A stretch of DNA of 64,000 bases from a virus: positions 1 to 64,000 of IMG/VR virus record IMGVR_UViG_3300042545_001167; one strand, 5' to 3'. Of this stretch, positions 729-14,146 are shown one piece after another (the first letter of the stretch is position 1; each line of letters opens with the position of its first letter). Made by a program: the position numbers and the translations under genes. The notes beneath the pieces are model-generated. The model was not told the origin of the DNA and searched no databases. It saw only the letters and a list, made by a program, of their open reading frames with translations.

Positions 729-1916
729 TCAGAGCCCGTATCTGGATTTAGTTGCTATGTAATTTTGTTGGATTTCTGATGCTGTGAGGACACGATTATG
801 CGCTATAAAATTAGATATTCTACCATTCCAATTTCTACCACCACCTCCCCAAGTTCCTAATCTTAAATATTGAGATGAATAATTAATTGGATTTGCTGCT
901 GCTCCACTGGAGTGAAATACTCCATTAATATAAGCACTTGCAACACTATTATTCCAAGTAAATGTAAGAAATGTCCAAGTATTTGCGGTCAAATTAAATA
1001 CTGATGTACCACTACCATTTGTTGCATTAATACAAGAAAAACTGTATTGATTAGTAGTTGTACTGTTTTGTTGACAAACAAAATTTTGACCTCCGGTATG
1101 ATTATTATCAAAAATATCCGCGTATTGAACTTGAGTTGAACCTGGATATACCCACAAAGAAATAGTAAAATTGGTATAATTAAAAAATGACCCCAAATTT
1201 ACATAATCATTCACACCATCAAAAACCAAAGAACCTCCATTAGACCCATTATAAGTTGGATAATTTACTAAAGTTCCATTATTAGAACCAACCAAATCTT
1301 TATAAACACTTCCACCATAATAAGATGAAGTAAATGGCGTTGGTGTTGTAGTTCCTGAAGGTACTCTTTCTACTTGTAGTCCATCCCACCAAATATTTTG
1401 ACCAGTTCCTCCACTATCTGGACCGTCTAATCTTGTATGAATATAAGCAATATCTGCGTTTGCCATAGTAATATAATGACTTACTCTGGTCCATTCAGTC
1501 GTTATATTAAAACCAACTGCAGATATTGCTAACCAAGCACCACCAACAAATCCAGTTCCAGCACTATTTGCACCAAAAATAAAAATCTGTCCTGTAGTAG
1601 CAACATCTGCTTTCACATATACACTTACAACCCAAGTTTGTCCATTTGCAGCAGGTGCAATATTCCAAACACCAGAGTTATAGCTTCCCAGATGTGGATC
1701 ATTTCCAGTTACTGCCATTTTCAATGGAGTATTGCCAACTGGAGAACTTATAGTATCTCTTGATATTGTTGATGCGTTTCCTGAACTACTATTATACCAA
1801 GCAAAAATATCAGTAGAATACTGAAACTCATTTTGAGAGTATGATTTCTTATTTGCAGCGTCTAATGCAAGAACTAGTCCACTTTCTAAAATGTCTGGAC
1901 CGGAGAACGCACCCAT
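729..1916 (-). CDS. LamG/concanavalin A-fold lectin-like virion protein, 395 aa
   Basis: The N-terminus (ESGLVLALDAANKKSY) matches those of the next two genes. It is followed by an additional jelly-roll-like region (about 70-200, ending in WWDGLQVERV) and a C-terminal LamG-type sandwich (about 225-395) with the typical phrases LVFDGVNDYV and FTISLWVYPG. LamG/concanavalin-like domains bind sugars, and in phage tails they usually act as receptor-binding or fibre-tip modules. It is the last gene of the leftward fibre block, just before a terminator. The family call is firm; adhesin function is inferred from fold and context. Confidence 0.8.
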   Translation of the reverse strand: MGAFSGPDILESGLVLALDAANKKSYSQNEFQYSTDIFAWYNSSSGNASTISRDTISSPVGNTPLKMAVTGNDPHLGSYNSGVWNIAPAANGQTWVVSVYVKADVATTGQIFIFGANSAGTGFVGGAWLAISAVGFNITTEWTRVSHYITMANADIAYIHTRLDGPDSGGTGQNIWWDGLQVERVPSGTTTPTPFTSSYYGGSVYKDLVGSNNGTLVNYPTYNGSNGGSLVFDGVNDYVNLGSFFNYTNFTISLWVYPGSTQVQYADIFDNNHTGGQNFVCQQNSTTTNQYSFSCINATNGSGTSVFNLTANTWTFLTFTWNNSVASAYINGVFHSSGAAANPINYSSQYLRLGTWGGGGRNWNGRISNFIAHNRVLTASEIQQNYIATKSRYGL

Positions 1917-1932
1917 TTTTAAGATTTTATTA

Positions 1933-1941
1933 GTATTTAGG
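1933..1941 (-). promoter_or_regulatory. Variant late-promoter motif CCTAAATAC
   Basis: This TAAATAC motif lies 17 bases upstream of the ATG at 1916 and overlaps the TAA stop of the preceding gene. It differs by one base from the clearer TATAAATA-type late promoters in the window, so I treat it as a probable weak late promoter. Confidence 0.4.
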
Positions 1942-2590
1942 TAAGACCAAACCTCCCTCTTAATGCATTATAGTTTTGTGTTAATTCAGTTGTAGATAAA
2001 ATTCTATTATAAACATAGATGAATGAAACTTCGCAAGTTGAATATTCTGATGCTCCTCCTCCCCACCTACCAACACTCAATCCATTAAATCCTGCTGACC
2101 CTGAAGTTGAGTTTGAAACTTTAACAGCATTATTTACATATAAACTTCTTAAGTCTGAACCATAGTTTTCTGTTGCAGCAAGTATTCTCCAGTTTGTATC
2201 ATTAGCACCAGCACCAACAGCACTTATCCAACCTTCGGCATAATAATTTTCTGTAGTAGAACCCCAATGACCTAATAACCAGTTATTAGTATTTGAAGTT
2301 ATTATCCTTCCTCTAGTTGCACCAGAATATCTTGCTGCTGCAATAATAGTGAAAGTAGATCCAGAATAATTCAAAGAACTTAAAGTTCCATACTGTGTTG
2401 AACCATTAAACTGAAGAACACCTCCATTTGTTGATGTAAATGTTGGACTGCCTGTTAAAGTCATATTATATCCATTACCACTCAAATCAGTCCAAGTGGT
2501 TCCAGAACCAGGATAAGACTTTGTATTGCCCGCATCAAGACACAGAACTAATCCATCAGTAACTGTGCGTGGATTATAAGCAATTCCCAT
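1937..2590 (-). CDS. LamG-fold lectin-like virion protein, 217 aa
   Basis: A single LamG/concanavalin-like domain. The N-terminus GLVLCLDAGNTKSYPGSG is shared almost exactly with the next gene, the core has VLQFNGSTQYGTL, and the end is FIYVYNRILSTTELTQNYNALRGRFGLT, the closing strand typical of phage LamG adhesins. A GAGGT element lies upstream of the ATG. The termini are nearly identical at DNA level to those of the neighbouring gene while the middle differs, which suggests duplication followed by diversification of the binding face. A tail-fibre or head-decoration lectin role is inferred. Confidence 0.8.
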   Translation of the reverse strand: MGIAYNPRTVTDGLVLCLDAGNTKSYPGSGTTWTDLSGNGYNMTLTGSPTFTSTNGGVLQFNGSTQYGTLSSLNYSGSTFTIIAAARYSGATRGRIITSNTNNWLLGHWGSTTENYYAEGWISAVGAGANDTNWRILAATENYGSDLRSLYVNNAVKVSNSTSGSAGFNGLSVGRWGGGASEYSTCEVSFIYVYNRILSTTELTQNYNALRGRFGLT

Positions 2591-2615
2591 TCTCTCTCAA
2601 TACCTCTTCGTTTTT

Positions 2616-2624
2616 GTATTTAGG
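2616..2624 (-). promoter_or_regulatory. Variant late-promoter motif CCTAAATAC
   Basis: The same nine bases as at 1933-1941, 25 bases upstream of the ATG at 2590 and directly after the stop of the preceding gene. Repetition of the motif and spacing in front of two paralogous genes supports a regulatory role. Confidence 0.4.
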
Positions 2625-3287
2625 TTAAATTGAGAAACGACCTCGGAGTGCGTTGAAGTTTTGTTGGATTTCTGATGCTGTGAGTGCTCTGTTGTATATC
2701 ATATAGTTACAAACAGTTCCGTTATTATATGAACCACTATAATAAAGTCCAGGATAAAATGAAGTGCTAACTGATGCTTTTTTTGTCACTTGATTCATAA
2801 CTTTAACAGCATTAAAATAAACATCATATTTTTCTGCTGCTGTTTTAACGATTACAATGTTATTAATGGAAAATGGAGAAACTGTGGTAGTATCATCTAT
2901 TTCTCCAGCGGCACCGCCGTAATAAGATACTCGATAAGTTAAAGTTGTTCCACTTAAAGATGCTCGCAAATGATTCTGACCTATTCCGCTCGCATTACTT
3001 CCAAATAATGCTCCATCACCCACCAACCATCCACTAAAAGTCTGTAAGTTTGAATTTGTTGCTGATTCAACAACTGCGGAAGTGGTAACATAGTCTGTAC
3101 TATCAAATATAATACTTCCTTTATTAGAACTACTATAAGTTGGTGTATTTACAAAAGTTCCATTATTACCATTACCACTCAAATCAGTCCAAGTGGTTCC
3201 AGAACCAGGATAAGACTTTGTGTTTCCTGCATCTAAACAAAGGACTAATCCTGATGTAGTTATAGAGGGTGAGTGAGCAAGTGCCAT
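2625..3287 (-). CDS. LamG-fold lectin-like virion protein, 220 aa
   Basis: Third member of the LamG group. It shares GLVLCLDAGNTKSYPGSG near the N-terminus and a closing ALTASEIQQNFNALRGRFSI, with a different central region (DYVTTSAVVESATNSN). About 50 bases encoding the N-terminal motif are identical to those in gene 1937..2590, pointing to recent duplication or gene conversion. The likely role is a sugar-binding virion adhesin; the ligand is unknown. Confidence 0.8.
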   Translation of the reverse strand: MALAHSPSITTSGLVLCLDAGNTKSYPGSGTTWTDLSGNGNNGTFVNTPTYSSSNKGSIIFDSTDYVTTSAVVESATNSNLQTFSGWLVGDGALFGSNASGIGQNHLRASLSGTTLTYRVSYYGGAAGEIDDTTTVSPFSINNIVIVKTAAEKYDVYFNAVKVMNQVTKKASVSTSFYPGLYYSGSYNNGTVCNYMIYNRALTASEIQQNFNALRGRFSI

Positions 3288-3301
3288 CTTTTATTTCCTT
3301 A

Positions 3302-3913
3302 TTAAAATTCCGTATCAAAAAAGAACAAATGAAACAATCTTGAAGTTTCTTTAGTGAATCCAAAATATTTAGATGCAGCGTGAGGACAATGACCATCCCA
3401 AATCACCAAGCGATTATAAACATTCGCAATTTTATCAATCTCTTCCCAAGGTGTTGCATCCAAATGTACTCCAGTTGGTGCTGCTTCTGCCCATACATTC
3501 ATAATGTCGGGATGGTCACAATGTCTTACTCCAGTTTTCTTATGTGCAAGTAATGATGTACCAGATTCATAAGGAGCATCTGGAGTTAGATAAACGACTC
3601 CAGCCCACTTCTGACTATCTGCGTGATAAACAAGTGCATCCTCTGCGGTACAATACTGAAATCTTCCGCACATTCCATAAGTTTCTCCCCAAGCACTAAT
3701 CTTTTTACCAATAATTCTTTCAAATGCTTCTTTAGTTTCTGGAATAAAATATTGGTCTTGAGTTCTTCTACCTCTGTGGTAATCAGAAAACTCATAATCT
3801 AACGATAATGCAAATCTACGAACGATATCTGGGTCATTGTAGAAATTATCCACCACAAATACTGATGGTTTTGGATTCTCTGCAAGTTTTTGTTCGTGAA
3901 GAGAATACATCAT
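3302..3913 (-). CDS. 2OG-Fe(II) oxygenase-like protein, 203 aa
   Basis: The jelly-roll oxygenase signature is present: His97-x-Asp99 (YHADSQ), a core strand GVVYLTPDAPYESGTSL, a distal His in GHCPHAASKYF (His175 or His178) and an Arg at 192 that could bind the 2-oxoglutarate carboxylate. Such enzymes hydroxylate proteins, sugars or small molecules with Fe(II), O2 and 2-oxoglutarate. It overlaps the stop of the methyltransferase/radical-SAM fusion by ATGA, so the two are co-translated and probably act on the same substrate, which I cannot identify. Confidence 0.7.
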   Translation of the reverse strand: MMYSLHEQKLAENPKPSVFVVDNFYNDPDIVRRFALSLDYEFSDYHRGRRTQDQYFIPETKEAFERIIGKKISAWGETYGMCGRFQYCTAEDALVYHADSQKWAGVVYLTPDAPYESGTSLLAHKKTGVRHCDHPDIMNVWAEAAPTGVHLDATPWEEIDKIANVYNRLVIWDGHCPHAASKYFGFTKETSRLFHLFFFDTEF

Positions 3914-6006
3914 TTGTGCTTTACTCCATTTTCACAGAAACGACACATATCAAAACAAGTATTTGGTTGAGGTGCAATGTCTTTATACTCTTGGTCCAAT
4001 AGGTTTCCGATAATAAACTTCAAACTATAATCCATACAGCATAGAGATACATCACCATTAGGAAGAACAATATTGTGATATAGGTGTTCATCACAACCAC
4101 AAGTTCTTGGTTCCTCTCCGTGATAGACTGATTTATAGCGGTCTTGAAGATTGAGAAGTTCTGGTTTTAGCATTGCTTCACCAACAAGATTTCCTGCACG
4201 ATTCCAGAAAGCAGGAACAATTGCTTCGGGGAATATGTGCTTAACATCGGGATGTACTTCACCCATTGCCATTGTATAGAAACCTCGAATATCCTTATGA
4301 ACTTCTTTGAATGCTTCTAGAACTTTAATGTAATTGTCTGTGATTGGATGTTTTGCAATTCTTTCTGCATCAGGTAGGTGTAGGACGAACTTACCATTTG
4401 GTCCCAAATCATAAGGTACATCTTTAATTCTATAAACATCATCAACTTTCATTCCAATTCCAGTTGTAAAGACTGCTATTCTGTGCCCCTTTTCGTGAGC
4501 ATATAGAAGCATATCAGTACAATCTTTATTCAACCAAGGTTCAGTAAATCCTGCGAAGGTTACACGAATTTCTTGTGGTAGTTTATCTACCATTTTTTTG
4601 AAGTTGTCTAGAGTTAGAAATCTAGTCTCATCCACATAAGATTTCTCAAGAATTCTCTGAGGGCAGAATGCACAATCTACTACACATCCTTTCTTGGGAA
4701 TTGATGTAGTAAATTCCATCGTAGCCCAAGGAGTGATGTTCCAGAAGTTTTCTAGTACTTCTGTATTATCAATATAAATTATGATTTCATTATATCGTTC
4801 TACTGCCCAGTCATCCCACATACTCCATTTAATATCAACATCATCGCAAGAATAGATTTCAACTTTATTAAAATCATTGAGATAAGTATCTCTAAATTCA
4901 ACAAATCTTTTCTTTTGGTCTGGTGTTGCTAGATGAAACTCTCCAGCAATCTTACGAACATTTTTTACAATCCAAGGACGATTCTCTTCATTGAAAATAT
5001 CATACTCACCACCTTCACAATCTACCTTAAGAAAATCAATTTTTTCAATATCATTTTCTTTTAGGAAAGTATCAAATCTAAGTCCATTTGTTGTTTGAAT
5101 CTTTTCCCAAGTTTCTGTACAGTCTTTATCATAAAGACCACCAGTTTCAAACTCACCATTTACTGATGCAATTCCTTTATTGATAAGAGTTACATTTTGA
5201 TGCTTTTCTAAATTCTGACTGAGTGTTTTGAACAAAGAACTCTGAGGTTCAAAACAATAAACTTGCTTTGGATTTTGTGTTAAAATTTTATATGTAAATG
5301 GTCCAACACTTGCACCAATATCTACAACCAAATCATCCTCATCCACTTTAAAGAATTTTTGATAGACATCTCTGGTAAAGACTTCATCGATTATAACCTT
5401 TTTGAACCATTTGTTTTGTTCAATTTCTCCCCAATCAAATTCTTTTTTGAAGAGTTTTAAATTATTCAAAACTGCTTGCTTATGCGATTCATTTAATTGA
5501 TTCCAATAATTTGTTTTGAGATCCAAAAACATTAAATGGCTGTCATCACAAAGTCCACACCACCAAGCAGATACTGCTCTTTCAAATAAAATTCCACAAT
5601 ATCCAAAATAATCAACCTTGAGTGGTAGTGGTTTTGCATTAAAATCAGAAACTTTTTCCCCAATAGATGCAATCAAATATGAATCGTGATAATTCTTTTC
5701 TCTTTCATAAAATCTTGAGAGTAGATAATATCCTTCAGGTCTCTTTGGATCTACTGCAATTGCACTTTGAAGAAGTCCTTTGACAGAATTGCTCCTACAT
5801 CCCTGAGAATCAAAGCATTCTGATGCAGAAAGCAGGCAAGCATACATTAAAGTTTTATCTTCTGTTCTTTCTGCGGTTCGGATATAATAAGAAATAGCAG
5901 ATGCAGTTTGCCCAATAGAATGATAATAAATTGCTAATTTGAAATTAATCTCTGGTTCTTCAGTATGATGTACATAATAATCTAGAAGTTCTTGTAGTTC
6001 ATTCAT
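3910..6006 (-). CDS. TPR - FkbM methyltransferase - radical SAM/SPASM fusion, 698 aa
   Basis: Three parts are visible. Residues about 1-200 are helical and TPR-like. Residues about 205-400 form an FkbM-type SAM methyltransferase, with VVDIGASVGP at 228-236, CFEP, and FLKVDCEGGEYDIF. Residues about 430-698 form a radical-SAM enzyme with a CX3CX2C cluster (Cys441, Cys445, Cys448 in GCVVDCAFC) and a Cys-rich SPASM-like end (TCGCDEH, LCCMDY, CFDMCRFCE). FkbM enzymes O-methylate sugars; radical-SAM/SPASM enzymes usually modify peptides or sugars. ATGA overlaps on both sides link it to the GH130-like and oxygenase genes. The joint reaction is unknown. Two separate SAM chemistries on one chain is unusual. 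Confidence 0.85.
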   Translation of the reverse strand: MNELQELLDYYVHHTEEPEINFKLAIYYHSIGQTASAISYYIRTAERTEDKTLMYACLLSASECFDSQGCRSNSVKGLLQSAIAVDPKRPEGYYLLSRFYEREKNYHDSYLIASIGEKVSDFNAKPLPLKVDYFGYCGILFERAVSAWWCGLCDDSHLMFLDLKTNYWNQLNESHKQAVLNNLKLFKKEFDWGEIEQNKWFKKVIIDEVFTRDVYQKFFKVDEDDLVVDIGASVGPFTYKILTQNPKQVYCFEPQSSLFKTLSQNLEKHQNVTLINKGIASVNGEFETGGLYDKDCTETWEKIQTTNGLRFDTFLKENDIEKIDFLKVDCEGGEYDIFNEENRPWIVKNVRKIAGEFHLATPDQKKRFVEFRDTYLNDFNKVEIYSCDDVDIKWSMWDDWAVERYNEIIIYIDNTEVLENFWNITPWATMEFTTSIPKKGCVVDCAFCPQRILEKSYVDETRFLTLDNFKKMVDKLPQEIRVTFAGFTEPWLNKDCTDMLLYAHEKGHRIAVFTTGIGMKVDDVYRIKDVPYDLGPNGKFVLHLPDAERIAKHPITDNYIKVLEAFKEVHKDIRGFYTMAMGEVHPDVKHIFPEAIVPAFWNRAGNLVGEAMLKPELLNLQDRYKSVYHGEEPRTCGCDEHLYHNIVLPNGDVSLCCMDYSLKFIIGNLLDQEYKDIAPQPNTCFDMCRFCENGVKHK

Positions 6007-6974
6007 TTGATAAAATCCTCAAACACTTTTTCTGGAAACTTAATAAGATATGCTGCATTGTCTTGAAATCCATAAGTCATTAGGAAATCAGAACCTTGTT
6101 GAATTAATCCAACACAAAATTCAACATCCCCTCCCATAATGGAAAAGTCATTTGTCCATTTAACTAGGTTAAAATTTTTATCCCAGAATACTACTCTATG
6201 GCGATATATTGCATCTTTTCTTCCAGTTCCACTTTTGAACAAATCAACTTCATGAGTAATTGCAACATAATAATCTCTCCAAGGAATGACCTGAGAACCT
6301 CCTCTAAGATCTCTTGGAATTGATTTATATTCTCCAGTGAACACTGTTTCGCAGGTTTTATCTTCTGGATTTACTTTAACAATTTCTGTTGGATTACTCC
6401 ACTTTATAAAATGATATGGTTTGTCTAGAATTGGCATCCAATTCTTTGAGCAATATTCGTCATCATTTCCTGGAGTTGGAATGCGAAATCTTGATGTTTC
6501 TACGACTTTATTATCAGAAACTTTGATTTCGCAAAGTTCCATTCTGCCAGTTCCAACAGTATCTAAATCTCTTCTAACTCCACAAGTATAAAGTTTCCCT
6601 TCCCATTCAAAGAGTCTTGCATCTTCAAGACCAACAAAGTCCCATTGGGGTTCGTATGTATCAAATTTTGAAGTATCTATTGCATTTATTCTAGTGATTT
6701 CATACTTATCATTGAGTTCCAAATAATAATTTTTAGTTCTCAGGTGCATATCATCTTCTGGATGAAGATATGTCAATGGTCCATATGGATGCTGGAAAAG
6801 TTTCTTTTCCGAATGATAAAATGTGTAATTGACTGCTCTGAGATTAACTAAAACCTTACCTTTATGAATATAAACCGATGGGTTCATAATACCCAACCCA
6901 TCATTTAAATGAGATGGAATTATGATTGGATGAATTGAACCACCATTATCTAAAGCAATTTTTGCAAAATTCAT
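6003..6974 (-). CDS. GH130-like five-bladed propeller (glycoside phosphorylase/hydrolase type), 323 aa
   Basis: The repeated blades match the beta-mannoside phosphorylase fold (GH130 and relatives): NPSVYIHKGKVLVNLRAVNY, GLEDARLFEWEGKLY, KNWMPI, an IKWSNPTEIVKV strand and MGGDVEFCVGLIQQG near the end. Members of this fold cleave or phosphorolyse beta-mannosides and are often encoded beside glycosyltransferases. Here it overlaps the FkbM/radical-SAM fusion by ATGA and is preceded by a good late promoter, so it belongs to a virion- or surface-glycan modification group. Whether it is catalytic or only sugar-binding cannot be decided from sequence alone. Confidence 0.65.
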   Translation of the reverse strand: MNFAKIALDNGGSIHPIIIPSHLNDGLGIMNPSVYIHKGKVLVNLRAVNYTFYHSEKKLFQHPYGPLTYLHPEDDMHLRTKNYYLELNDKYEITRINAIDTSKFDTYEPQWDFVGLEDARLFEWEGKLYTCGVRRDLDTVGTGRMELCEIKVSDNKVVETSRFRIPTPGNDDEYCSKNWMPILDKPYHFIKWSNPTEIVKVNPEDKTCETVFTGEYKSIPRDLRGGSQVIPWRDYYVAITHEVDLFKSGTGRKDAIYRHRVVFWDKNFNLVKWTNDFSIMGGDVEFCVGLIQQGSDFLMTYGFQDNAAYLIKFPEKVFEDFIK

Positions 6975-7005
6975 AATTTAATTATCAATTAAATCCTTTG
7001 ATACT

Positions 7006-7014
7006 GTATTTATG
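7006..7014 (-). promoter_or_regulatory. T4-like late promoter CATAAATAC
   Basis: A minus-strand CATAAATAC lies 31 bases before the ATG at 6974 and matches the TATAAATA-type late promoter of T4-like phages. It would drive the GH130-like, fusion and oxygenase genes as a late unit. Confidence 0.7.
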
Positions 7015-7022
7015 AGTGAGAT

Positions 7023-7406
7023 TCAACCTAATGAACTGTTCATATTATCCCATTTATATTCCTCTTCATTCCAAAAATATAAGTTTTCTGTATCTTCTGG
7101 ATAAGGAATTGGTGATTCCCATAAACAAGTATCTTCATTTAATATCCAACTTTCATATGGTTTTGGTGAAATAAAAGCATCTTTTTCATCGTCGTAAATA
7201 TATCCAACACCAGCATAATTTTTTCTAAAGGGAGTTCCACCATTATTATGATTCCCTCCTATAGTATTATATGAGGTTCTTTTACAAACCTGACCTCTAA
7301 AGTTTCCATAGTGTTCTTCCCAATTAATTCCATCTTCACCTTCATTTTTGCCAGTGATAACTTCAGTTACAATGTTATTTTCGTCTAAAAATGCATAATG
7401 GGCCAT
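7023..7406 (-). CDS. Conserved cyanophage protein of the tail-fibre region, 127 aa
   Basis: The protein begins MAHYAFLDENNIVTEVITGK and contains RKNYAGVGYIYDDEKDAF and SWILNEDTCLWESP. I recall this pattern from many T4-like cyanophages beside fibre genes, where it is annotated as hypothetical. It is acidic, rich in Trp and Tyr, with no signal peptide or membrane segment. It lies between the glycine-rich fibre gene and a late promoter, so a small structural or fibre-associated role is likely but not shown. Confidence 0.75.
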   Translation of the reverse strand: MAHYAFLDENNIVTEVITGKNEGEDGINWEEHYGNFRGQVCKRTSYNTIGGNHNNGGTPFRKNYAGVGYIYDDEKDAFISPKPYESWILNEDTCLWESPIPYPEDTENLYFWNEEEYKWDNMNSSLG

Positions 7407-7414
7407 AACTTTTC

Positions 7415-9187
7415 TTAATTAAATTGAATGTTTCCAGTTCCTAGAGTGAAAGTAGTTACTTTATTACTTCCTACAGTTTGTGTGGTGAAGGTTAGACCTC
7501 CTCCTGGATTACTTATAGTGTAAGTAGTCGAATAACTAAGAATAACGACACCTGAACCACCATTAGAACCAACTCCATTAGTTCCATCACCTACAGCAGC
7601 ACCACCACCGCCACCGCCAGTATTTGTAGTTCCTGAAATTGATGCTCTTGTTGGTGAAGTTCCGCCACCGCTGCCTCCCTGACCGCCACCGCCACTCCCG
7701 CCAGCACCGCCCTGAGATGTATAACTTGCACCAGCACCACCTCCTGCACGAGTAACTGCAGTTCCTGTTATACTTGAAGATAATCCATCTCCACCATTTC
7801 CACCAGTTCCAGATCCAGATGCTGTTGCACCAACTGTTCCAGCACCACCACCACCACCTGAACCATAGTTTGTTGATGTTGACCCTCTTCCACCATTATT
7901 ACCTTCTCCAGAAGTTCCAGTACCTGCAGTTGCAGCACCGACATATTCTTGAGAAGCACCACCACCAGAACCACCATTCGCACCGTTTAGGGAATATGCA
8001 TTAGCACCTTTTCCTCCACCAGTTGAAGTAATAGTTGAGAAGACGGAATTTCCTCCATTAGTTGCATTAGAGATTGCTTGATTTCCTGGAGTACTAAAGT
8101 TTGCAGAGGATGTACCGCCAGCACCACCTGCACCAACTGTTACAGTGTAGTTTGTTGCAGTACTGAAAGTAAATCCTGTTGCAGTTCTATAACCACCAGC
8201 ACCACCGCCACCTCCAATATATCCTCCCCCACCACCACCGCCAGCAATAACGAGGTACTGAACCACTGGTGATGGTGCTCCTTGGAGAGTTATTTTACAA
8301 TAACCATTACTAGTATTTACTCCACCAGTATTAGATTGATTTGTTCCATTATTGTACGAACCACCACCACCGCCACCCTGCAAGTCGGAGCAAGCACAGC
8401 TATTTAATCCACCGCCGCCGCCGCCACTATATCCACCGCCGGCGCCACCAGTGTAGTTAGCGGTTCCACTTCCTCCACCAAATCCACCATCTGCTCTTGT
8501 CCCTGTCCCTCCGGTTCCTCCGTTTATAAAGGAAAGCCCCGGATTTCCTTGTGCTGTAGTACCATTTCCAGTAAATCCACCGCCACCAGAACTTGCGGGT
8601 ACACATCCAGTTCCAGCACCCCCACCACCACCAGCAGTCCCTCCTGCTCCACCAGAACCACCATCTCCTTGATTTCCTGATGTGGAAGTTGTTCCATTTA
8701 ATCTAGAAGCAGTAATTACTCCTGAAGAAGAACCTCCTCCACCACCTGCTACAATTAATGGGACATTGGAATTTGTTGCAACAAAAGTTCCTCCTCCTCC
8801 ACCACCAAAACCTTGGCCACAATCAGCTGTTCCGTTACGACCTAATTGCCCTACAAGAATTTTAATAACATCTCCTTGAGTTAGTGAAAATGTTCCAATC
8901 ATTTTGGCACCATATCCCGGAGTAGTAGCAGTTCCCCCGCCAGCTGCTCCCGCAACTTCTATAGTATAGGTTCCAGTTCGTGGAACAGTCCATAGTTGAA
9001 TTCCACTTGATGTGGTAAAATATGATGCATTATTTAACCAAGAATTAGATGCAGTATCATATGAAGCTAGGAGATTTGCCGTTGAGGGTCCAATATTTCC
9101 AATTTGAGTTCCATTTGTAAACGTAAAAGTTGTAAATGGATATAATCCCAATTGTATAGAAGTAAAAAATAATTGATGTATTACCAT
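7415..9187 (-). CDS. Glycine-rich fibre/adhesin protein, 590 aa
   Basis: An N-terminal beta-rich module (GIQLWTVPRTGTYTIEVAGAAGGG) leads into long Gly-rich stretches (GGGGGG, GGSGGAGGTAGGGG) of the type seen in ALK-like Gly_rich domains and cyanophage fibre tips. Such segments form polyglycine-II bundles in known phage adhesins, so receptor binding is plausible. A longer frame reaches 9250, but that would overlap the previous gene; the ATG at 9187 is two bases past that gene's TAA and gives a clean start. It ends FTLGTGNIQFN. Several repeated CCACCACCGCC-type runs reflect the glycine codons. Confidence 0.8.
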   Translation of the reverse strand: MVIHQLFFTSIQLGLYPFTTFTFTNGTQIGNIGPSTANLLASYDTASNSWLNNASYFTTSSGIQLWTVPRTGTYTIEVAGAAGGGTATTPGYGAKMIGTFSLTQGDVIKILVGQLGRNGTADCGQGFGGGGGGTFVATNSNVPLIVAGGGGGSSSGVITASRLNGTTSTSGNQGDGGSGGAGGTAGGGGGAGTGCVPASSGGGGFTGNGTTAQGNPGLSFINGGTGGTGTRADGGFGGGSGTANYTGGAGGGYSGGGGGGLNSCACSDLQGGGGGGSYNNGTNQSNTGGVNTSNGYCKITLQGAPSPVVQYLVIAGGGGGGGYIGGGGGAGGYRTATGFTFSTATNYTVTVGAGGAGGTSSANFSTPGNQAISNATNGGNSVFSTITSTGGGKGANAYSLNGANGGSGGGASQEYVGAATAGTGTSGEGNNGGRGSTSTNYGSGGGGGAGTVGATASGSGTGGNGGDGLSSSITGTAVTRAGGGAGASYTSQGGAGGSGGGGQGGSGGGTSPTRASISGTTNTGGGGGGAAVGDGTNGVGSNGGSGVVILSYSTTYTISNPGGGLTFTTQTVGSNKVTTFTLGTGNIQFN

Positions 9188-9189
9188 AA

Positions 9190-9699
9190 TTAAGATAACC
9201 CAGCTCCACAAATTACAAAGGTATTTGATGCAACACATAAAATAGTACAAATTCCATATGAGGCAAGTGTTCTATTTCCAGTACTAGTAGTGCCAGCATT
9301 TCTCAAAGTTACGGAACCCTGAGTGATTGTCTGATTTGAACCAGAATCATTATAAACAGAAATTGTGTCACCTACACTAAAAACTGATGCAGGAACGGTT
9401 ACTCCGCCTGTAGTAATTGATATATGTTTTCCAGCATCTGATGCAATTAATGTATACGAAGTAGTTTTTGCATTTTGAGGAACATTTGATGGTCCTTGAG
9501 CACCTGTGGTTCCTTGAGCACCTGTGGTTCCTTGAGCACCTGTGGTTCCTTGAGCACCTGTTGCACCTTGAGCACCTGTTGCACCTTGAGCACCTGTGGT
9601 TCCTTGAGCACCTGTGGTTCCTTGAGCACCTGTGGTTCCTTGAGCACCTGTGGCTCCTTGATAAGTTGTACCTAAAAAACTTGAAAGAGAAGTAGGCAT
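9190..9699 (-). CDS. Collagen-like short fibre protein, 169 aa
   Basis: After [14 protein letters not shown] comes an uninterrupted Gly-X-Y tract of about 17 triplets, mainly GAQ and GTT, ending at [11 protein letters not shown] compact beta-rich C-terminal domain (about 70-169, [19 protein letters not shown]) follows. Collagen-like triple helices are common stiff shafts in phage fibres, and the C-terminal part would act as the trimerising or binding head. The DNA is a tandem 9- and 18-base repeat and may vary in copy number. A TAAATA motif lies just upstream at 9708-9716. Confidence 0.8.
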
Positions 9700-9700
9700 T

Positions 9701-12700
9701 TTATTGATTATTTAGATTACTTAGATGATTTTTAATTTTTTGCATTTCTTTTTGAGATTCTTTAAATGCCTCAATTAAAAGACCAATCAAACCATTATAA
9801 TTAACTGTCTTTTTGCCATTGATATTTAATATCAGTTCTGGTAAAACTTTTTCAACTTGTTGAGCAATAACACCAGATGAAGGAGCATTATTATCTACCC
9901 AGTTAAATGTTACACCGTCAAGTTTATTAATTTTTTCTATAGAATTTTGTATGATTTTAATGTTTGTTTTTTCTGTTTCATCAGATAATGATGTAAAAAT
10001 CGTAGCAGATAAGGTTCCTGTAGATGGATTAAATGTAAATTTTGATGATGAAACATTTGTTGCACTAGGTGTTCCTGTTGTAACATCAACAAATGTAGGA
10101 TATCTTGTTGCATTCGTGGAATTGTCATTTGTAATTGAGGAACTTCCGCTAGTTCCTGCTGTACCTTGAGCACCTGTAGTACCTGCTGTACCTTGAGCAC
10201 CATTGCTACCAACAAAACCAGCACTACCCTGAATACCTTGAGGACCACTTGGACCAGCATTAGCATAAACTTCCCAAGTACTTCCATCATAAACTATATC
10301 TGCAGTAATGCCTTTGATATTAAAAGTAAAATCATCAGTAATACCTTCAATTGTTGAACCATTTCTACCTAATGTTAGATTGGTTGTTGCCCAATCTGCA
10401 CCATCCGCAATTCTAATATTATGACCTATTGATGGTGTTGCTGGAAGTGTAATTGTAAAGGTTCCTCCAGAAGTGTCTGCAATTATGCTATCACCATTTA
10501 CTGCAGTATAGTTTGCAGTTTTTCTTACCCATCTATTAATAATTGCTTGTCCTACTACAACATCACCACCATAAGGTGCAAGAGAAACTGTCCCCGCAGC
10601 ACCTACATCAATACTAGGAATGCCAGAAACATCATTAACAGAGAAAATAGAACCAGTGGTAAGGTTATTAGTAATACTGAATAACTGCCCTGCAGAACCT
10701 TCAAAAGAAAGAGTGCCTGAATTTAAAGCGTCATAATGAACAATATCAATAATAGTACCGATTCCCACAGTACCTACACCAGATACTGCTCCAGTATATG
10801 TAAGACTGGTAGAACCATCTGGATTATTTGAACTATTCTTGTAAACGATTTGATTAGCAGATCCTGCTACTGGGCCTGTGATACCTTGGATACCTTGAGT
10901 TCCTGTGGTTCCTTGAGTTCCAAGAATACCTTGGATGCCCTGTGTTCCTGTAGTTCCTTGAGTTCCAAGAATACCTTGGATACCTTGTGTTCCCGTAGTT
11001 CCTTGAGTTCCAAGAATACCTTGGATACCTTGTGTTCCCGTAGTTCCTTGAGTTCCAAGAATACCTTGGATACCTTGTGTTCCCGTAGTTCCTTGAGTTC
11101 CAAGAATACCTTGGACACCTTGGATTCCTTGAGTTCCTTGGACACCTTGGATTCCTTGAGTTCCTTGGACACCTTGGATTCCTTGGACACCTTGGATTCC
11201 TTGAGTTCCTTGGACACCTTGGATTCCTTGGATTCCTTGAGTTCCTTGGACACCTTGAATTCCGGCAGCAAATGGAGTTGTCCAAGAAACACCAGCACCA
11301 GTAGCAATTAAAACACTACCTGCAGCACCTACATTTCCATAAAAGTCTCTTAAAGAACTATCAAGTTCTACTAATCCAACAAATGTAGAAGCACCAGAAA
11401 CTCTTACATCACCTTGAACCGTAAGTTTTGATGTTGGATTTGTGGTTCCTATTCCAATAGAACCTGCGTGATACATCTGTGAAGATGTATCAGAACTATA
11501 AATGGAATAACGGTTGGTTAGAGTTCCATTTACAATTGGAGTTGCTAGATATACACCATAATAATTTGTAAGTTGTCCTGTAAGTGCTACTGTTGGTGCT
11601 CCATAATATCCATAGTAATTGGTGAGAGTTCCAATACCAGTTCCTGATGCAGCACCAACCTGCATAAGGTTATAATGACCATATGCACTGGTTGATGATG
11701 CAGAGTAGTTTGCTGTTGCACCAATATTTGTTGTAGTAAAATTTCCATAAATGGTAGTTGCAGTTGCTTTTTGGACTCCTACAAGATTACGATTTCCATA
11801 CGCAAATCCAGTTACAACAGATTGGTCTACATTAGATCCTTGAAAAACGATGTTAGAAATTCCATAAAGCAAATTAGATGCATAAGAAGAAACATCAGTG
11901 GTGCTGTTTCTAGCAACATAATTATAAAATCCAATTCCAGTAAGTCTTGCAGCAGATGAAGTTCCTGCAACATTAGTAAGGTTATCAAGTCCATATAGAG
12001 TTGAATTATAACTTCCATTTGCAGAAGTTAATGCAGAACTGAATATTGCTGGTTCATAAGATCTAAAAGCAGTTTGAGAAGCATCAAAACTATATACAGT
12101 TTCTGGTTGAACTAATAAAGAAACATTTTGTGCAGTATAACTCTTACTGTCTAATGTATTGAACCAAACTGATTGAGTGCTTCCTATTGAAGTTTCTACC
12201 TTTGTGGTTCCATTAACTTGTAATTTTGTTGTTGCATTTGTGGTTCCTATTCCAACAGAACCAGAAACATAAGCACCACCAGTAACTTGAAGATCTTGAT
12301 CTGCTGTTCCTGTTGATGTTGCTGAACCTATTAATACAGGTCCGTTAGTGAATGTAGAACTCCCAGAAACACTCAATTGTGGAGTGCTTACTGTAGAATC
12401 AGTAACCTGCATTCCTCCAGCAGCAAGTCTAACTCCTAATGGAATTTGTGTAGAACCAATACCAACACCATAATTAAATATCCAAGCATCAGTATTGAGA
12501 CCAGTAAAGGAACCAGACTTAAACCACATTAACTGCTTATAGGTATCTGGTGTTACTTCTCCAGCAGAACTTAAACTAACTAATGGACTACCTTCTGTGG
12601 ATGCAATTGCAATACCACCCGTGTTAGCTGTTGTATCTGTAGAGGTATCATTACCAAGACCATCGGTAACAATACCAACTACAAGATCCTTATCTTTGAT

Positions 12701-14146
12701 TCTAAGTTCGTTAGATATAATATATGATGATGTACCCCCAATTGTGATATTTCCACCAACATAAAGATTAGAACCATCAAAAGTTAAATTGGTAGACCCG
12801 GTAGGATTATTTGATCCATCTTTATAAACAATTTGATTGGCAGAACCTGCTACTGGACCTGTGACACCTTGAATACCTTGAGTACCTTGGACACCTTGAA
12901 TACCTTGAGTACCTTGAGTACCTTGAGTTCCATCAGTTCCTTGAGTTCCTTGAGTTCCTTGAGTTCCAGTAGTTCCTTGGATACCTTGAGTACCTTGGAC
13001 ACCTTGAATACCTTGAGTTCCTTGAACACCTTGAGTTCCAGTAATTCCTTGGATACCTTGGATACCTTGAGTACCTTGGACACCTTGAGTACCTTGGGTT
13101 CCTTGAGTTCCATCAGTTCCTTGAGTTCCAGTAGTTCCTTGGATACCTTGAGTACCTTGGACACCTTGAGTACCTTGGGTTCCTTGAGTTCCTTGAGTTC
13201 CAGTAGTTCCTTGGATACCTTGAGTTCCTTGGATGCCTTGGGTTCCTTGAGTACCTTGGGTTCCTTGAGTTCCATCAGTTCCTTGAGTTCCAGTAGTTCC
13301 TTGGATACCTTGAGTACCTTGGACACCTTGAGTACCTTGGGTTCCTTGAGTTCCATCAGTTCCTTGAGTTCCAGTAGTTCCTTGGATACCTTGAGTTCCT
13401 TGGATGCCTTGGGTTCCTTGAGTACCTTGAGTGCCTGTGGATCCTTGAATGCCTTGGATACCTTGAGTTCCTTGGATACCTTGAGTTCCTTGGACACCTT
13501 GAGTTCCCTGAGTACCCTGAAGTCCTTGAGTGCCTTGAATACCTTGAGTGCCTTGAGTTCCTTGAATACCTTGCGTTCCTACAGATGCCGGCGCCGCCCA
13601 AGAAACACCAGCTCCAATAGCAATTAAAACACTACCTGCAGCACCTACATTTCCATAAAAGTCTCTTAAAGAACTATCAAGTTCTACTAATCCATTAAAT
13701 GTAGAAATTCCAGAAACCGTCAAACTATTGAATGTTGGAGTATCGGAAACCCTTATCGTTGCAATAGCACCTCCAGTAGTGGAAATAGCAATTATGTTAT
13801 TTCCTCTAAAGTCTAAATTTGTTACGCTACCAGCAGTTCCTACAATATTTCCTTCTTCTCTTACTACAATGCCATCAAGAGTTCCTGCACCTGCTTGAGT
13901 AACTGGTTGCCAACTCCAACCACCACTACCATCTGCAACAGGAACATATGTATTATTTCCGGGACTATTATTATTATCGTAGATTGCACCACGAATTCTA
14001 ACATTTCCATCAACATCTAATTCTTGTGTTGCATTTGTGTTTCCAATACCAACCTTACCAGTAACCTCAAGCACTGTCTGACTTTCGGTATATGAACTAA
14101 TACCAATCTTAAGATTTTTTTGACGATTACTGATGAACTTTGCCAT
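9701..14146 (-). CDS. Collagen-like tail fibre with S74 intramolecular chaperone, 1481 aa
   Basis: Layout: an N-terminal attachment domain with [17 protein letters not shown] repeats; a first Gly-X-Y shaft (about 186-430, mainly GTQ/GIQ/GVQ); a beta-rich middle; a second shaft (about 962-1089); a short third Gly-X-Y run near 1300; and a C-terminal Peptidase_S74 chaperone with the Ser1388/Lys1393 dyad in [10 protein letters not shown] followed by a coiled coil. S74 domains trimerise fibres and then cut themselves off just before the Ser, releasing about 94 residues. The flanks of the two shafts ([20 protein letters not shown] and [13 protein letters not shown]) are duplicated. It is a likely long host-recognition fibre. 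Confidence 0.9.
10880..11262 (-). repeat. Tandem Gly-X-Y coding repeat (second collagen shaft)
   Basis: Nine-base units encoding GTQ, GIQ, GVQ and GIL triplets, including several near-identical 63-base blocks ([15 protein letters not shown]). It lies inside the 1481-residue fibre gene and keeps the reading frame. Confidence 0.85.
11303..11378 (-). repeat. 76-bp direct repeat, copy A
   Basis: Seventy-six bases identical to 13619-13694 in the same gene. It encodes part of the module that precedes each collagen shaft, indicating recent internal duplication or ongoing conversion. Confidence 0.85.
12857..13590 (-). repeat. Tandem Gly-X-Y coding repeat (first collagen shaft)
   Basis: About 245 codons of GTQ/GIQ/GVQ triplets with occasional GTD. 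The regular nine-base period keeps other frames open, which explains the spurious long ORFs on both strands here. Confidence 0.9.
13619..13694 (-). repeat. 76-bp direct repeat, copy B
   Basis: Identical to 11303-11378; it encodes the module before the first collagen shaft. Confidence 0.85.

Follow-up and report, generated by a model that had tools for sequence, protein, structure and literature searches.

BtrN, the radical-SAM enzyme to which the protein described here comes closest in fold, stands alone in an antibiotic cluster. In phages, radical-SAM genes have been reported to pile up in T4-like marine genomes (12 in one of them), their role being left unstated in the accessible part of that account (PMC5332604), and 2OG oxygenases and mannose genes are known from cyanophages, according to the available sections of a second one (PMC9602691). 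The text at hand on the host-recognition cluster of pelagimyophages and cyanomyophages describes a structural region that is hypervariable and in which fibres, glycosyltransferases and "radical SAM" cassettes occur (PMC7029224). A precedent for TPR-guided glycosylation is provided by FlmG, the TPR half of which binds flagellin and is needed for flagellin O-glycosylation, as stated in the excerpt available (PMC7591256). In the literature that could be covered (most subscription journals fall outside its scope and several papers were available in part), no account of the fused, shuffled enzymes presented below was found; within these bounds it is these enzymes that are new, radical-SAM genes, 2OG oxygenases and mannose genes being already known in such phages.

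The locus lies in a window of 64,000 nt (positions 1 to 64,000 of the IMG/VR virus record IMGVR_UViG_3300042545_001167), which is a tail region by its baseplate, tail-tube and fibre PHROGs. Its relevant features are the following:

729..3287, minus strand: three ConA/LamG-type fibre-like proteins, candidate substrates or receptor binders, directly downstream of the cassette (PF13385, PHROGs virion families)
3302..3913, minus strand: 2OG-Fe(II)-oxygenase-like protein (DUF6445), 203 aa (PF20043)
3910..6006, minus strand: TPR-FkbM-radical SAM fusion protein, 698 aa, ATG start
3913..4176, minus strand: auxiliary-cluster (Twitch/short SPASM) end of the fusion, residues 611-698, with Cys 636/638, 656, 688 and 691 (PF13186, Cys counts, alignment with the C-terminal half of BtrN)
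4177..4752, minus strand: radical-SAM core of the fusion, about residues 419-610, CX3CX2C at 441-448 (PF04055; BtrN fold)
4762..5439, minus strand: FkbM methyltransferase domain of the fusion, about residues 190-415 (PF05050 and TIGR01444 above cut-offs)
5440..6006, minus strand: TPR arm of the fusion, residues 1-189 (fold search: TPR solenoids)
6003..6974, minus strand: first gene of the cassette, predicted GH130-fold (mannoside phosphorylase / beta-mannosyltransferase-like) five-bladed propeller, 323 aa (AF2 and fold search)
9701..14146, minus strand: 1481-aa collagen-like fibre protein (G-T/I-Q repeats), candidate substrate, upstream of the cassette

The carrier of this cassette is a water-dwelling phage, and the fusion gene sits amid tail-fibre genes. 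Altogether, the locus is read here, at roughly even odds (about 0.5), as a cassette of T4-like phages (cyanophages and their kin) that is modular, comprises several enzymes for glycan tailoring and has as its docked acceptor most likely the virion fibre or its glycan. That the parts share one glycan-tailoring path is in itself probable, since their families or folds (GH130, FkbM, BtrN-like) point to action on sugars and they are tied together by fusion and overlapping genes. The fibre is proposed as acceptor because cassettes lie close to fibre genes, a TPR arm is present and FlmG offers a precedent.

The initial annotation had proposed that two separate uses of SAM are joined in one chain with a TPR arm, and this is borne out by profiles for both catalytic parts and by predicted fold for the arm. 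The FkbM domain scores 44.1 bits with Pfam PF05050 (cut-off 22.7) and 68.5 bits with TIGR01444 (cut-off 37.7), and the radical-SAM domain also has profile support through PF04055, which is borderline overall (28.8 bits in the protein scan, just below the cut-off of 29.5, and 33 bits, above it, when the phage record was searched). The TPR_17 profile (PF13431) reaches 21.2 bits in the window protein, below its cut-off of 24.4, and 24.5 bits in the relative from Synechococcus phage DSL-LC02. Residues 1-189 are predicted to fold as a TPR solenoid, with matches including human OGT at Z up to 16.7, a value that helical repeats can attain without kinship; OGT and SPY stand high in the fold-match lists of the fusion protein. 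The AlphaFold2 model of the fusion, built with 28 aligned sequences as input, has a pLDDT of 87.2 and a pTM of 0.49, so that its single domains can be trusted and their relative placement cannot, and the VIA fold-match list, being filled by TPR rows, says little on the FkbM fold. No match was found in a PDB sequence search with the whole fusion protein. A protein identical over the full length is encoded by two IMG/VR contigs, and a third one encodes the first 233 residues. For four pairs of relatives, dN was far lower than dS in each of the three domains, and lowest in the radical-SAM part; the open reading frame is therefore not a product of chance, and a chimeric assembly was ruled out by the identical copies on further IMG/VR contigs together with purifying selection in every domain.

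Within the radical-SAM half, the CX3CX2C cluster motif noticed earlier at C441, C445 and C448 is kept in 31/31 aligned rows, and the C-terminus is Cys-rich as had been described, with seven Cys from 636 to 691. Among these, C636 and C656 are kept in 30/31 rows and C638, C688 and C691 in 26/31, and all five are present in the 25/25 near full-length rows that remain when six short or distant ones are dropped (L245 twice, L246, L247, L004 and the truncated L121), C684 being kept in 21/25 of these near rows and lost in 4/25. A full SPASM domain, with two auxiliary clusters, has the seven-Cys pattern CX9-15GX4C ... CX2CX5CX3C ... C. Here the first part of this pattern fits and beyond C657 there are just C684, C688 and C691, and given this incomplete set and the variable loss of C684 the protein is read as a Twitch-type enzyme with a single auxiliary cluster. 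Hence, the earlier label "radical-SAM/SPASM" stands as regards radical SAM, and the SPASM profile PF13186 does score above its cut-off (25.7 bits; cut-off 21.5), whereas the auxiliary site is reduced and BtrN/Twitch-like instead of a full seven-Cys SPASM.

Residues 419-695 of the model match BtrN (4m7t) with a Z of 16.1 and an rmsd of 3.6 over 215 aligned residues at 18% identity. BtrN is also retrieved by Foldseek (E 2.6e-7) and by a profile of 31 sequences (E 2.6e-4), and in the profile alignment the Cys around C636 and C656 line up. The sugar-nucleotide enzyme DesII (4e-5) and the peptide enzyme SuiB (4.9e-5) are both weaker matches by Foldseek than BtrN. Based on Cys conservation and the structural model, this half is read as a BtrN/Twitch-like enzyme with one reduced auxiliary-cluster site; a BtrN-like fold at such low identity does not fix the reaction.

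The coupling through gene overlaps noted earlier, with a GH130-like propeller on one side and an oxygenase on the other, is upheld: a 4-nt ATGA overlap is found at both ends of the fusion gene, with the GH130-like gene upstream and the DUF6445 gene downstream, and both neighbours are supported, the former by fold and the latter by PF20043 (31.7 bits; cut-off 24). The AF2 model of the GH130-like protein (pLDDT 86.9, pTM 0.88) matches a mannan phosphorylase (9fj8) with Z 23.9, the GDP-Man-dependent MPT-2 (6q4z) with Z 18.7 and GH43 proteins with Z 17-18, its identity to GH130 phosphorylases and MPT being 11-17%. Residues E117, D118 and R120 of a GLEDAR-type motif, as well as R134-D136, are kept in 34/34 rows. 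The window protein has no Pfam match, PF04041 included, and is for this reason classed as GH130-fold and not as a GH130 member; PF04041 matches 13/34 of its relatives, weakly (E up to 1; best 4.2e-4). In the oxygenase-like protein, the HxD...H...R set of metal and 2OG ligands (H97, D99, H178 and R192) is kept in 23/23 rows. PDB sequence searches with the GH130-like protein and with the oxygenase-like protein gave no match. A scan for promoters and terminators gave results near chance (41 found versus 37.1 expected, and 3 versus 5.3), and no long repeats were found within positions 3000-7100.

Among 50,697 phage records, one full-length relative of the fusion protein was detected, in Synechococcus phage DSL-LC02 (57.5%), where the three genes recur together and are encoded on the other strand from the neighbouring fibre genes; the genome of this phage is metagenome-assembled, according to the accessible text of its description (PMC10611076). 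Synechococcus phage S-SCSM2R, with WH7803 as listed host, encodes a GH130-like gene together with a fusion of TPR, module A and oxygenase that has no radical-SAM part. In IMG/VR, a direct query with the fusion protein yielded 11 loci, and alignment queries yielded 225 relatives for the radical-SAM part, at least 583 for the TPR arm and at least 586 for the GH130-like protein; the survey reported below took the best 80 loci per query and is thus a sample. With so many relatives, a unique oddity was ruled out. A bacterial origin was also discarded: in a scan of genome_contigs, 6 relatives were detected, of which no more than 2 exceed 60% identity, one on a 3.5-kb contig and the other (L244, a "WOR-3 chromosome") beside what reads as a T4-type family-B DNA polymerase, and therefore probably phage DNA.

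Nine modules were defined by home-made HMMs (2-6 seeds each) and run on all ORFs of at least 100 aa in the surveyed loci; with so few seeds, rare architectures represented by one protein each are provisional. In the best 80 loci per query, 404 different proteins carry at least one module, and about 30 complete multi-module architectures were obtained by hand count. The TPR-FkbM(B)-rSAM order of the window protein is shared by 16 different complete proteins, itself included, and the same sample holds 6 complete TPR-A-FkbM-rSAM, 5 TPR-A-rSAM, 7 TPR-rSAM, 8 GH130-rSAM and 7 GH130-FkbM-rSAM proteins and 28 with radical SAM alone, many of which adjoin other modules. Direct fusions were seen for GH130-rSAM, TPR-rSAM, FkbM-rSAM, TPR-oxygenase and GT25-oxygenase. 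Concerning module A, the label "FkbMA" was dropped (Pfam matched 0/2 segments, NCBIfam 0/1, and hhalign to FkbMC gave 30.7% probability), and it merely looks like a methyltransferase. A GH130-like module is present in 62/67 viral radical-SAM loci (best 80 loci per query, identical-protein loci merged, with L004, L015 and six genome_contigs loci left out); among the five others, L037, L042, L077 and L078 have too little upstream DNA and L079 is a true absence. In the same best 80 loci per query, the spacing from GH130 to TPR is -41 to +43 nt at 85/86 junctions, and the genes overlap at 67 of these. A tree built from 57 radical-SAM domains requires no fewer than 15 switches between its 7 architectures, as obtained by a quick method, with several long or open branches and with 5'-cut ORFs and distant and near-identical rows left out.

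These results, which came from the search for the fused architecture in other genomes proposed in the initial annotation, show the modules recurring fused or adjacent in one operon and not as unrelated stand-alone genes. The earlier remark that no phage pathway was known to use this combination does not hold in the sense of a one-off, the combination being common in uncultured T4-like phages. Variable islands gather unrelated genes, and the substrates of BtrN and DesII are small molecules; a cassette that makes a small molecule or a sugar nucleotide, or modifies DNA, could on these grounds have landed beside fibres simply because variable genes land there. The TPR arm found in most variants and the fused or overlapping state of the genes tell against this idea, which is regarded as very improbable.

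The placement in a tail-fibre region noted earlier is confirmed by the baseplate, tail-tube and fibre PHROGs and by the adjoining ConA-type proteins, PF13385 being found in two of the three (in one of these just below the cut-off). In loci for which 3 kb or more of the 4 kb of flank is available, and with regular expressions for collagen-like or S74-type fibre genes as markers, a fibre gene lies within 2 kb of 25/43 radical-SAM cassettes and 14/42 cassettes without radical SAM, and of 0/54 NrdB and 0/46 ThyX controls (Fisher 6e-12 and 7e-11, respectively, for the radical-SAM cassettes); irrespective of flank, the counts are 34/68, 20/66, 0/74 and 0/68. Since cassette and fibres lie within one hypervariable region, proximity alone does not establish an enzyme-substrate relation. 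The marker is absent within 2 kb in 18/43 radical-SAM loci, and no conserved fibre neighbour common to all cassettes was seen, the neighbours being fibres, sheath-like, glycosyltransferase-like and other genes as named by our own reading. In several loci the cassette is collinear with fibre genes at short spacing, and some cassettes lie instead amid glycosyltransferase, sulfotransferase-like or other genes. The phage record itself encodes a GDP-mannose dehydratase (E 1.4e-155) and a fucose-synthase-like gene with a sugar C-methyltransferase between them, a set that may represent the phage's own sugar supply, as well as a WavE-like gene.

Part of this evidence is compatible with a cassette that acts on the LPS/O-antigen of the infected host, remodelling the envelope so as to block superinfection or grazing, and that leaves the virion untouched. 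This corresponds to the view expressed for glycosyltransferases of the same pelagimyophage hypervariable region in the portion of that work available (PMC7029224), and both the cassettes beside glycosyltransferase or sulfotransferase-like genes and the GDP-fucose-type gene set and WavE-like gene of the phage record would agree with it. The strong fibre-gene adjacency, the collinear short spacing with fibres in several loci and the TPR arm, which suggests a protein partner, point in the other direction, and envelope remodelling is considered possible and rather unlikely.

The composition of collagen-like repeats, taken from 47 genes in the vicinity of cassettes, bears on what would be modified on a fibre, with Thr making up 42% of X and 33% of Y, Gln 54% of Y, and Lys absent from the ten commonest residues at either position. 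Glycosylation of Thr is a named route to collagen stabilisation, BclA being a glycosylated bacterial example, according to the sections available of PMC3368898. It may also be envisaged that the fibre polypeptide is itself the target of the radical-SAM and oxygenase modules (hydroxylation, epimerisation or cross-links, in a RiPP-like manner), the product being used by the sugar enzymes. Peptides are the substrates of many SPASM enzymes, the fold matches include SuiB, and a GT25-oxygenase fusion (L194) recalls the collagen hydroxylase-glycosyltransferase pairs, collagen-like fibres being nearby. Against this, BtrN is the closest fold, with a Foldseek E-value about 200-fold better than that of SuiB, and the lysyl route known from animal collagen does not match repeats in which Lys is not among the ten commonest residues at X or Y; modification of the polypeptide is thus held to be improbable.

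Tailoring of a fibre-borne glycan, the preferred reading, can be outlined as five steps. The GH130-fold enzyme, judging by its predicted fold, would transfer, or phosphorolytically trim, a beta-mannosyl-type unit, and the TPR arm, also a fold prediction, would by analogy with FlmG dock the acceptor, most likely the virion fibre or its glycan. The FkbM domain, in line with its family, may then O-methylate the sugar, and the BtrN-like radical-SAM domain, with its likely cluster Cys, could abstract a hydrogen from a sugar carbon, either converting an alcohol to a ketone with the help of the auxiliary cluster or bringing about an epimerisation. Finally, the DUF6445 oxygenase, considering its family and metal-ligand pattern, would hydroxylate or oxidise another position. 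Fusion and re-fusion of the modules might keep these steps on one held substrate and make the decoration at the host-recognition surface changeable.

A more ambitious version can be put forward tentatively and is, on balance, doubtful: assembly-line-like recombining chains would hydroxylate, mannosylate, O-methylate and radical-oxidise sugars on the phage's own Thr-rich collagen-like tail fibres, creating at the host-recognition tip a viral "glycan alphabet" that is diversified by module shuffling and not by point mutation, and including what would be the first radical-SAM enzyme of viral origin to take part in virion glycosylation. The cassette gives the radical-SAM genes of T4-like marine phages a context: beside fibres, they form part of a translated unit that also comprises methyltransferases, oxygenases and a mannosyl-type enzyme. 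If the proposed function is true, the chemical decoration of phage fibres and its effect on host range become testable, as a version of the set is present in S-SCSM2R, for which a laboratory host is named, and new carbohydrate radical enzymes would be on offer.

Compared with the described systems, the phage proteins combine familiar parts in an unfamiliar manner. With BtrN, the AdoMet-dependent 2-deoxy-scyllo-inosamine enzyme (an aminocyclitol enzyme) of the butirosin pathway (PDB 4m7t/4m7s), the radical-SAM domain has in common the CX3CX2C core and one reduced auxiliary-cluster domain, and it differs in being fused to TPR and FkbM domains and in sharing just 18% identity. The FkbM domain passes the cut-offs of both profiles of its family, but lies between TPR and radical-SAM domains. 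The fold of GH130 mannoside phosphorylases and GDP-Man-dependent mannosyltransferases is common to the first gene of the cassette (Z 23.9 and 18.7), whereas the phage gene runs into the TPR gene within 43 nt in 85/86 junctions of the best 80 loci per query. As in FlmG and the OGT/SPINDLY-type glycosyltransferases, a TPR arm is placed ahead of sugar-acting catalysis, but the phage chain has no glycosyltransferase domain, its predicted catalysis consisting of methyl transfer and radical chemistry. Lastly, the host-recognition cluster of pelagimyophages and cyanomyophages is likewise a hypervariable structural region, and the GH130-TPR-FkbM-rSAM-oxygenase fusions are not described in the accessible part of its account (PMC7029224).

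The DUF6445 2OG-Fe(II)-oxygenase-like protein of the cassette (window 3302-3913) matches the PHROG family phrog_1644, titled "minor coat protein", a name also borne by its RefSeq cyanophage relatives. The protein carries an HxD...H...R pattern, which suggests that this designation is wrong. Among the phage relatives, the oxygenase gene of Synechococcus phage DSL-LC02 (L002, 14136-14729) is labeled "FkbM family methyltransferase" in the database and the fusion of Synechococcus phage S-SCSM2R (L003, 5998-7863) "cytochrome c-type biogenesis protein CcmH/NrfG"; both annotations look like misnomers.

Two window genes are located between the cassette and the large collagen-like fibre:

7415-9250, 611-aa Gly-rich protein
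9190-9699, 169-aa collagen-like protein with GATGAQGTT repeats

At window 10850-13627, on both strands, the collagen-like repeats carry long ORFs in other frames, which are probably repeat by-products rather than genes. Beyond the window, at about 89-94 kb of the same phage record, a GDP-fucose-type sugar gene set is found together with a C-methyltransferase and a WavE-like gene.

Relatives of the radical-SAM module were also detected on bacterial contigs. On one stretch (L244, CP070705.1 143497-160321) of the chromosome of a "WOR-3 bacterium" MAG, such a relative is accompanied, by our reading, by a T4-type DNA polymerase and by ORFs that resemble glycosyltransferases; judging from this sequence, the stretch is likely phage DNA inside the MAG. 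The pairing seen there recurs in L079, a viral radical-SAM locus devoid of the GH130-like module. A 16.7-kb bacterial locus (L245, CAMTMP010000004.1) bears three distant radical-SAM paralogs.

Oxygenase modules are joined to glycosyltransferases, as GT25-oxygenase and FkbM-GT25-GT17-oxygenase chains, in three loci with relatives of the cassette modules:

L194, 13346-14764, GT25-oxygenase chain
L009, 11096-14095
L011, 8356-11319

Cyanophage S-SSM7 (L413, 204356-216850), in which a DUF6445 relative is flanked by GT11 and GT25 genes, is another case of sugar context. In the fused chains listed above, the pairing of GT25 with a hydroxylase brings to mind the collagen-modifying enzymes of giant viruses.
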